DNA of 40,405 bases, taken from contig JAQWBI010000015.1 of the NCBI GenBank assembly GCA_028706475.1, positions 1-40,405 of the forward strand. The letters are read 5' to 3'. The notes beneath the pieces are model-generated. The model had not been told where the DNA came from, made no database searches, and saw nothing but the letters and a program-made list of their open reading frames with translations. This DNA is from Candidatus Cloacimonadota bacterium (GTDB taxonomy: Bacteria > Cloacimonadota > Cloacimonadia > Cloacimonadales > Cloacimonadaceae). Numbering within the stretch: position 1 is the stretch's first letter; each line of letters begins with the position of its first letter. Shown here piece by piece: positions 14,828-40,405 of this stretch. A program made the position numbers and the translations under genes.

Positions 14828-14949
14828 CCTCATTACCCGCTTGGCCTTAAGGAGACTTAAACGTGATATCATCGGGTTATCATCGAATGGGCACAGGATG
14901 ATAACGGGATTATATCTGATTCATATCGGGACGAGACAGAGAGGGAGCC
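14828..14949 (-). repeat. Dispersed palindromic element, copy 1 (family C)
   Basis: About 122 bp that matches 38314-38437 in reverse complement. The core carries GTTATCATC (14876-14884), a 12-nt loop and GATGATAAC (14897-14905), flanked by TGATATCA at 14864-14871. Shared outer blocks on the minus strand are GTTTAAGT and CCAAGCGGGTAATGA on one side and CTCCCTCTCTG on the other. It lies in the 378-base gap between the P-II-like gene and lon. Confidence 0.75.
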
Positions 14950-28317: not shown

Positions 28318-28448
28318 GGTTTCTTGGTGGCATCTTTTTTGACCTCTAGAGATTATGAGCTTAAGCAAATCCTAATTATGAATGATTGGGTAACAACCAT
28401 ACATCAGGTGACAGCTTTTTTCCCTGAACTTGGATTATGTGTTTGGAG

Positions 28449-28617
28449 TTCATTTGACATAATGTATCTTATTGTATACCTATATGTTATATGGTCAAAT
28501 GGATTTCAATATCTGGGGTGGATTCTATGCATTGCCAGAAGTCCACGCAACCCCTCAACTTATTTTACGGAGATAGAGAGCATAGGTGTCTTGAACTCCG
28601 TGTGTTATTTGGGTTGA
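28449..28617 (+). repeat. Dispersed hairpin element, copy 2 (family A)
   Basis: The second copy of the element at 275-440. Outer helix TGGATTT (28500-28506) with AAGTCCA (28539-28545) contains a G-U pair where copy 1 has G-C. Inner helix CTGG (28513-28516) with CCAG (28535-28538) shows a compensatory exchange relative to copy 1. Both copies keep a 6-nt bulge between helices. A short open frame crosses this copy but is not shared by copy 1, so I do not call a gene. Family C copy 2 begins 13 bases further on. Confidence 0.7.
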
Positions 28618-28629
28618 ATGAGAACGTAT

Positions 28630-28750
28630 CGATCCCCTCTGTTCCACCTCTTGCTAAAGCTGTGGCGAACCAGATATAAAGCTGTTATGAAGCAGTGATC
28701 ACTCGATGATAACCCGATGACATCTGCTTCAGCACTCAACGAAGTACAGG
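28630..28750 (+). repeat. Dispersed palindromic element, copy 2 (family C)
   Basis: Shares with the other copies the core CGATGATAACCCGATGACATC (28705-28725, one position different), GATAT at 28673 and a left block CCCCTCTGTTC. The internal stem is degraded: only GTTAT with ATAAC remains of the 9-bp arm. It looks like the oldest of the three copies. Confidence 0.6.
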
Positions 28751-38135: not shown

Positions 38136-38246
38136 AATGGCCAGGCTTTTCCCTCAAAGAGGATTCTATCAGAACTCAGGAGTGGGTATTACCTTCTCCG
38201 GTGGTGAACCGCTTGCCCAGGCTGAGTTTGCCTTTGCTCTGGCTAG

Positions 38247-38520
38247 TTTCATGTCAAGCATGAGGTGGCAATCTACGACTTGCCACAACGACCGAAGGGA
38301 GCTTTAGAATCATGCTCCTCATTCCCTTTGTTCGATCCAGTGTTGAAGCTGATATCAAGGTGTTATCATCCTATGCTCACCCGATGATAACCCGATGATA
38401 TCAGGTTCAAGTATAGATAATCCAAGGAGGAATGAAGCTTCTGAATCATCTGCAGAAGTATCTGGCAAATTGGAGTTTGGCAACCCAATAACAAAACGAC
38501 ATTCATGCCTTGACGAGTCA
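38247..38520. mobile_element. 274-bp foldback (MITE-like) insertion with CTAG duplication
   Basis: Inserted in the activase gene and flanked by CTAG on both sides (38243-38246 and 38521-38524), likely a target duplication. Near its ends lie inverted repeats: GTCAAGCATGA (38253-38263) and TCATGCCTTGAC (38503-38514). The inner arms are also imperfect inverted repeats (CTCATTCCCTTTG against CCAAGGAGGAATGA), and the centre is the family C palindrome. It carries no transposase gene, so it must have been moved in trans, if mobile. Confidence 0.7.
38314..38437 (+). repeat. Dispersed palindromic element, copy 3 (family C)
   Basis: The best preserved copy: TGATATCA (38350-38357), AGGT, GTTATCATC, a 12-nt loop, GATGATAAC, CCGA and TGATATCA (38396-38403), a near-perfect cruciform of 54 bp. 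The outer blocks CATTCCCTTTGTTC and GTTCAAGT...CCAAGGAGGAATGA are shared with copy 1. It forms the middle of the 274-bp insertion. Confidence 0.8.
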
Positions 38521-39054
38521 CTAGAGAGATCAAGGAAGCGGGCTTTACCCTTGGTTTGGAGACTTGTGGTTATTTTGCCCCGGATCTCGATCAGGAGCAG
38601 TTAAAACTCATAAACTTCGTCTATTTCGATGTCAAACACTGGAGTAATTATGGCTACGTCTGCTATCCTTCATGCCCGATTACACCCATCTTGGAGAATC
38701 TATCCAGGCTTTGCTCCTGCCTGGGTTCGGATAGAATAATCCTAAGCCTGCCATTGATTACTGGAGTAAATGCCACGCTGGCATTCATAGATTGGATTGC
38801 CGATCATGCCCGGGATCACGCCATCTCCCAAATCCGTATCCTGCCCTATCACGAATATGGTAGAGCCAGATACCAATGCTTGGGAAAACAATACCCGATT
38901 GGTAACGTGACTCATCTGACGGAGCAGGATCTGAAGAGATTTTCCGAAGTACTAGAAGCCAGGAATTTGATCTGTGAGGTGCATGGTCTCTGAGCCAAAC
39001 TGGGATATATTACTCCTTGATCTGTTTGAGCTTCATTCACCTGCGAAAATGCGC

Positions 39055-40310: not shown

Positions 40311-40405
40311 ATGATGGAGAGTTTGATCCTGGCTCAGGACGAACGCTGGCGGCGTGGATTAGGCATGCAAGTCGAACGGTAGATACCTTTCGGGGTATTG
40401 AGAGT
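40311..40405 (+). rRNA. 16S ribosomal RNA, 5' end (partial)
   Basis: The universal start AGAGTTTGATCCTGGCTCAG begins at 40318 (E. coli position 8), followed by GACGAACGCTGGCGGCGTG and GCATGCAAGTCGAACGG. The mature 5' end should be at about 40311. The gene runs off the window. The first variable region (about 40374 onward) is included only in part. Confidence 0.98.

Follow-up and report, generated by a model that had tools for sequence, protein, structure and literature searches.

A CTAG-flanked 274-bp repeat with IS630-like ends, probably an IS630-derived MITE, splits an activase gene in a Candidatus Cloacimonadota bacterium

Introduction

What split the activase gene near the end of this contig, and what brought it there? 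The window, that is the whole stretch of 40,405 nucleotides analysed here, is contig C15 of a Candidatus Cloacimonadota genome assembled into 90 contigs (G000, 2.06 Mb). In it the reading frame of a glycyl-radical-enzyme activase is interrupted at positions 38243-38524 by 274 bp lying between two copies of CTAG. An earlier note, made from the letters of the DNA alone, had described the insert as a non-autonomous element with a precise boundary and had taken the CTAG duplication as a clue to its transposase, to which it gave no name. The features of the locus are as follows.

38137-38246, forward strand: left fragment of the activase gene, reading MARLFPQRGFYQNSGVGITFSGGEPLAQAEFAFALA (translation, comparison with the 312-aa G016 orthologue)
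38243-38246, no strand: left copy of the target duplication, CTAG (sequence; 4-bp duplication test on 47 end pairs in relatives)
38247-38520, forward strand: MITE, 274 bp, non-coding, about 40 copies in the same genome (own-genome search, copy alignment)
38247-38259, forward strand: terminal inverted repeat on the left, TTTCATGTCAAGC, with TGTCATGTCAAGC as consensus of the family (agrees with the 5' end of the IS630-family ISs of G005, G061 and G115)
38343-38410, no strand: family C palindrome with 28-nt arms, a separately dispersed repeat that is probably nested in the MITE (sequence, other copies)
38508-38520, reverse strand: terminal inverted repeat on the right, CCTTGACGAGTCA, in reverse complement TGACTCGTCAAGG (agrees with the 3' end of the IS in G061)
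38521-38524, no strand: right copy of the target duplication, CTAG (sequence)
38525-38993, forward strand: right fragment of the activase gene, open to the stop codon (G016 orthologue alignment; TIGR02494)

Results

Excision of the insert restores the activase frame

When 278 bp, the insert and one CTAG, are deleted, ...FAFALA runs on into REIKEAGFTLGLETCGYF in the same frame, and since 278 is not a multiple of 3 it is the removal that restores the frame. From codon AGA across the junction the right fragment reads REIKEAGFTLGLETCGYF and runs to the stop at 38993. When 60 relatives were compared, the best activase homologue was an intact 312-aa protein in G016 (L058 1030-1965), to which all 155 of 155 residues of the right fragment align with 65% identity. 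By the profile TIGR02494 (274 bits) this protein is a glycyl-radical-enzyme activating protein. This orthologue is gap-free across the insertion point (FAFALAREIRDAGFTLGLETCG; longer stretch FAFALAREIRDAGF), and the G016 DNA at the matching site is GCCCTGGCAAGAGAGATC. The earlier claims that the insert is bounded by CTAG, that its removal with one CTAG rejoins the gene, and that the right part holds no further frameshift thus all stand. The expectation of an empty site with a single CTAG stands in part: the only empty site found, that of G016 at 65% protein identity, has a single copy and no gap, but it reads CAAG, one base away from CTAG.

About 125 N-terminal codons, the radical-SAM cysteine motif among them, are missing from the window activase. 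In G016 the reading frame just upstream of the activase resembles by eye the C-terminal part of a glycyl-radical enzyme, and this partner is absent from the window; with both the partner and the first ~125 residues gone, the gene has been damaged in at least two ways. Further along, positions 40314-40405 resemble the start of a 16S rRNA gene (agagtttgatcctggctcag) that runs off the contig end.

The insert belongs to a dispersed family with fixed ends

A search of the same genome found the element at about 40 places, with 76-93% identity. At least 17 of these copies have both ends visible and lie in unrelated flanks after strand-corrected alignment, and in most of the complete ones similarity ends at identical nucleotides, with CTAG directly followed by TGTCATGTCAAGC on the left and CCTTGACGAGTCA directly followed by CTAG on the right. 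About 40 further places in one genome, common terminal nucleotides and unrelated flanks together show that the element is not a product of chance. Eight copies keep an unchanged CTAG on both sides; in older copies the CTAGs have mutated, so several flanking pairs mismatch. Two copies (L020 and L021) have common flanks and could be a single locus that entered the assembly twice; some copies are truncated (one to just 127 bp, G000:C18:7716-7842), and two or three have themselves been invaded by another palindromic repeat.

The element begins TGTCATGTCAAG... and finishes ...CTTGACGAGTCA. Its inverted repeat, quoted earlier as GTCAAG[G]CATGA, proved longer than that and starts at the insert's first base (consensus read inwards TGTCATGTCAAGC on the left and TGACTCGTCAAGG on the right); TGNCNNGTCAAG is found at both ends, and there are relatives with a 13-bp perfect repeat. 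The insert is therefore a MITE: it is short, non-coding and multi-copy with shared ends and terminal inverted repeats, and it lies between CTAG and CTAG where the gap-free G016 orthologue has a single CAAG. The repeat family, the G016 homologue and the relatives with the same ends uphold the precise boundary and the non-autonomous character proposed at the outset.

Two further MITEs, G019:C51:15021-15269 and G019:C107:15518-15727, have perfect TGTCATGTCAAG ends and CTAG on both sides, and since their interiors are unlike that of the window element, several MITE families have common ends. At position 2411 of L153 (G067:C298:6806-6837) a 24-bp perfect palindrome, TGTCATGTCAAGCTTGACATGACA, lies between CCAG and CTGG and amounts to two element ends joined with nothing in between.

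A separately dispersed palindrome lies at the centre

The family C palindrome that the earlier note had placed at the centre of the insert is present, its 28-nt arms (38343-38370 and 38383-38410) being 86% complementary; what has to be refined is its status, as it is a repeat dispersed in its own right. The folding energy of the insert is far outside that of shuffled sequences (z = -7.3), and this strong fold is largely that of the palindrome and needs no function. Family C occurs without the MITE arms at 14854-14923 and 28662-28731 of the window and, alone in unrelated flanks, at many places in the sister species G003, while two relatives of ~145 bp in G029 possess the left and right ends of the MITE but lack the palindrome. 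Given these standalone copies and shorter relatives, the MITE and family C are probably a nested composite that was amplified as one unit. An ancestral short MITE would have gained the unrelated ~70-bp palindrome in its middle before amplification, and the composite would then have spread as a unit. Alternatively, the palindrome could have belonged to the MITE from the start, perhaps as a fold-back of the same event, with the forms lacking it arising by internal deletion; its presence in every near-complete own-genome copy seen except the 127-bp one fits such an origin, but given the solitary copies in the window and in G003 and the G029 relatives we consider it unlikely. Nesting, for its part, would explain how a dispersed palindrome of unrelated origin came to multiply, as a hitch-hiker inside a MITE.

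A second dispersed palindrome-like repeat (GTTCATTTGACATAATGTATC...GGTCAAATGGA) is found in the window at 276-346 and 28448-28518, the two being 77% identical. Sequence similar to it sits inside the MITE copies on G000:C10 (L261) and G000:C42 (L134), and probably in that on C25 (L267).

The same ends enclose IS630-family transposase genes

The 16-mer CTAGTGTCATGTCAAG, allowing at most one mismatch, was found in 23 of 125 genomes of the phylum, with near-zero matches for the reversed control. G115, G005 and G061 each carry a pair of such ends in inverted orientation, at a distance of about 1.2 kb; CTAG lies on both sides, and the ends enclose overlapping ORFs in two frames. In the G115 copy ORFA carries HTH_32 and HTH_29, and ORFB carries DDE_3 (97.9 bits) and reaches 165.6 bits with the NCBIfam model NF033545 for IS630, against a cut-off of 100. 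The search proposed earlier for full-length relatives and a transposase gene with these ends was thus successful, and the CTAG duplication did prove a clue to the transposase, which belongs to the IS630 family. In each of the three complete copies the overlap of ORFA and ORFB holds either TTCTAAAAAAAACGAACTTAAG or TTTTAAAAAAAACGAACTTAAG; to judge from its sequence, this A8 run would fit frameshifting or slippage, as described for the IS630 family (PMC5009743).

When the window element was compared with these ISs, 0 to 6 of 2000 shuffles scored as well as its left end did against the IS 5' ends, and none of 2000 as well as its right end did against the 3' end of the G061 IS; beyond the outer ~20 bp the likeness is modest (17-20 of 28 positions, ungapped). 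The MITE thus has ends in common with a DDE_3-encoding IS of the IS630 family.

In the same genome, contig G000:C74 holds a truncated transposase relic whose ORFA is 86% identical to the copy in G005, of the same genus, and has the same A8 run, and whose ORFB stops after about 35 matching residues. The assembly of this genome, 97% complete in 90 contigs, has no intact copy of the transposase, and that the element was mobilised in this species is therefore something that we infer.

The 20-mer CTAGTGTCATGTCAAGCTTG has further occurrences in Desulfobacterota, Aminicenantes, an Acidobacteriota bin, Marinifilum and ANME-1 contigs, and at the Desulfobacterota loci L250 and L254 there are complete elements of IS630 type, each bordered by CTAG at its two ends. 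The same IS end, together with pieces of IS630-type ORFA and ORFB, is found on L258, an IMG/VR contig classed as viral (IMGVR_UViG_3300031603_000043).

The target duplication is probably four bases long

Both IS630 and ISY100 reportedly duplicate 2 bp, TA, with IS630 preferring a TA within CTAG (PMC2170065, with the title of a paper by Tenzen and Ohtsubo cited in it); ISY100 rarely makes an AA duplication (PMC2170065). CTAG on both sides could accordingly reflect this preference together with terminal bases of the element, so it is insertions at other 4-mers that decide between 2 and 4 bp.

We compared the flanks of 47 end pairs from relatives, taken by best end match and not by flank, although the loci had been chosen in part for departing from CTAG. 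Nineteen pairs were CTAG/CTAG and four more were identical without being CTAG (CTAC/CTAC three times, and CAAG/CAAG, which taken alone could be an AA duplication). Other pairs match at three positions that include a non-consensus outer base (GTAG/GTTG, CTTT/CTAT and CTAC/CTGC), and pairs in disagreement are also present (CTAC/CTAG, CTAT/TTAG). TA is the centre of most sites and is found at both ends in 36 of the 47 pairs. Base agreement between the two ends was above that of all 20,000 permutations, and Fisher tests gave p about 0.001 for C at the fourth position and about 0.003 for G at the first.

As the non-CTAG pairs match over four bases (CTAC/CTAC, CAAG/CAAG), these sequence comparisons favour a true 4-bp duplication, which we regard as probable. 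That only the 2-bp TA of canonical IS630 and ISY100 is duplicated, CTAG being a target preference plus the element's own terminal G and C, would agree with the precedent of these two elements (PMC2170065), and the 19 pairs with CTAG at both ends do not inform on the choice; agreement outside the TA (CTAC/CTAC three times, GTAG/GTTG, CTTT/CTAT), with the permutation and Fisher results, makes this alternative rather improbable. We lean towards a wider view, in which a widespread two-frame IS630 subgroup (in Cloacimonadota and Desulfobacterota, its end sequence also in Aminicenantes, Bacteroidota and ANME-1 contigs) makes 4-bp CTAG-like duplications, not 2-bp TA ones, and drives MITE families across Cloacimonadota. 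Confirmation of the 4-bp duplication would mean that strand-transfer spacing can differ from 2 bp within the IS630/Tc1/mariner superfamily.

Other transposases as the source

The IS481 family has a CTAG target and TG...CA ends and was considered as the source on that account; these ends are present at none of the 30 best IS481-like loci, and an IS481 origin was therefore rejected. That some other CTAG-targeting family (IS5 or IS481 type) moved the element, its likeness to IS630 ends being coincidental, is highly improbable. The IS5-type MITEPsy1 also duplicates CTAG or YTAA (PMC3189936) and IS481-like genes abound in the phylum, but in several species and phyla it is IS630-family ORFs that these ends directly enclose. 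A DDE_Tnp_1 (PF01609) IS of the same genome was likewise discarded, as its visible end, ...AATGCCAG, differs from the MITE ends. The C-terminal part of its transposase lies at the ends of contigs G000:C14 and C21 (L031, L032), and it is probably a multi-copy IS collapsed in the assembly.

Discussion

The best explanation of this locus, and one in which we have high confidence, is that a 274-bp MITE with the ends of a two-ORF IS630-family IS was moved by such a transposase, duplicated CTAG over four bases and split the activase gene, family C having probably been nested in it earlier. It builds on the repeat family and its ends, the uninterrupted orthologue, the autonomous ISs with the same ends, the relic in the same genome and the correspondence of the flanking 4-mers. 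Mechanistically, an IS630-type transposase, now seen in the assembly as a relic only, would have bound the TGTCATGTCAAG-type ends (TGTCA...TGACA), mobilised the element by excision or copying and inserted it at a CTAG, where a four-base stagger would then have been filled in. This insertion would have split the activase gene, which is also truncated at its 5' end. Since the transposase is seen here as a relic only, the MITE family may now be immobile in this species.

In our literature search we found no description of this MITE family or of IS630 elements in Cloacimonadota, and no paper joining the IS630 family, target site duplication and CTAG. For Cloacimonadota the analysis provides a multi-copy MITE family that is precisely bounded and whose autonomous partner can be identified.

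Among the closest known systems is RUP of Streptococcus pneumoniae, a 107-bp, multi-copy, non-coding repeat whose partner is IS630-Spn1 (PMC2229807). Like RUP, our element is a short non-coding multi-copy repeat with inverted ends resembling those of IS630-family ISs and a TA-containing target (PMC2229807), but it differs in sequence and phylum, in length (274 bp versus 107 bp), in its nested palindrome and in the apparent 4-bp duplication. With ISY100 and IS630, of the Tc1/mariner/IS630 family, it shares the transposase family of the presumed partner and the preference for a TA target, CTAG in the case of IS630 (PMC2170065); those elements, however, have a single transposase gene and a 2-bp TA duplication, whereas the transposase of the presumed partner is encoded in two overlapping frames that contain an A8 run, and the flanking pairs match over 4 bp. 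The NEMIS/Correia elements of Neisseria are also MITEs with a shorter form and a longer one carrying an internal segment (PMC2229807), but their sequence is unrelated, and the segment inside our element is a palindrome that is also dispersed on its own. MITEPsy1 of Pseudomonas syringae is a MITE with a 4-nt CTAG or YTAA duplication as well, but it is 100 bp long, has 18-nt ends (GGAAGGTCTGAAAAAGCC) and is tentatively assigned to IS5 (PMC3189936). Judged by its sequence, the element is thus an IS630-derived MITE and as such of a general kind already known, with RUP and IS630-Spn1 as a comparable pair; unusual are the probable 4-bp duplication and the probable nesting.
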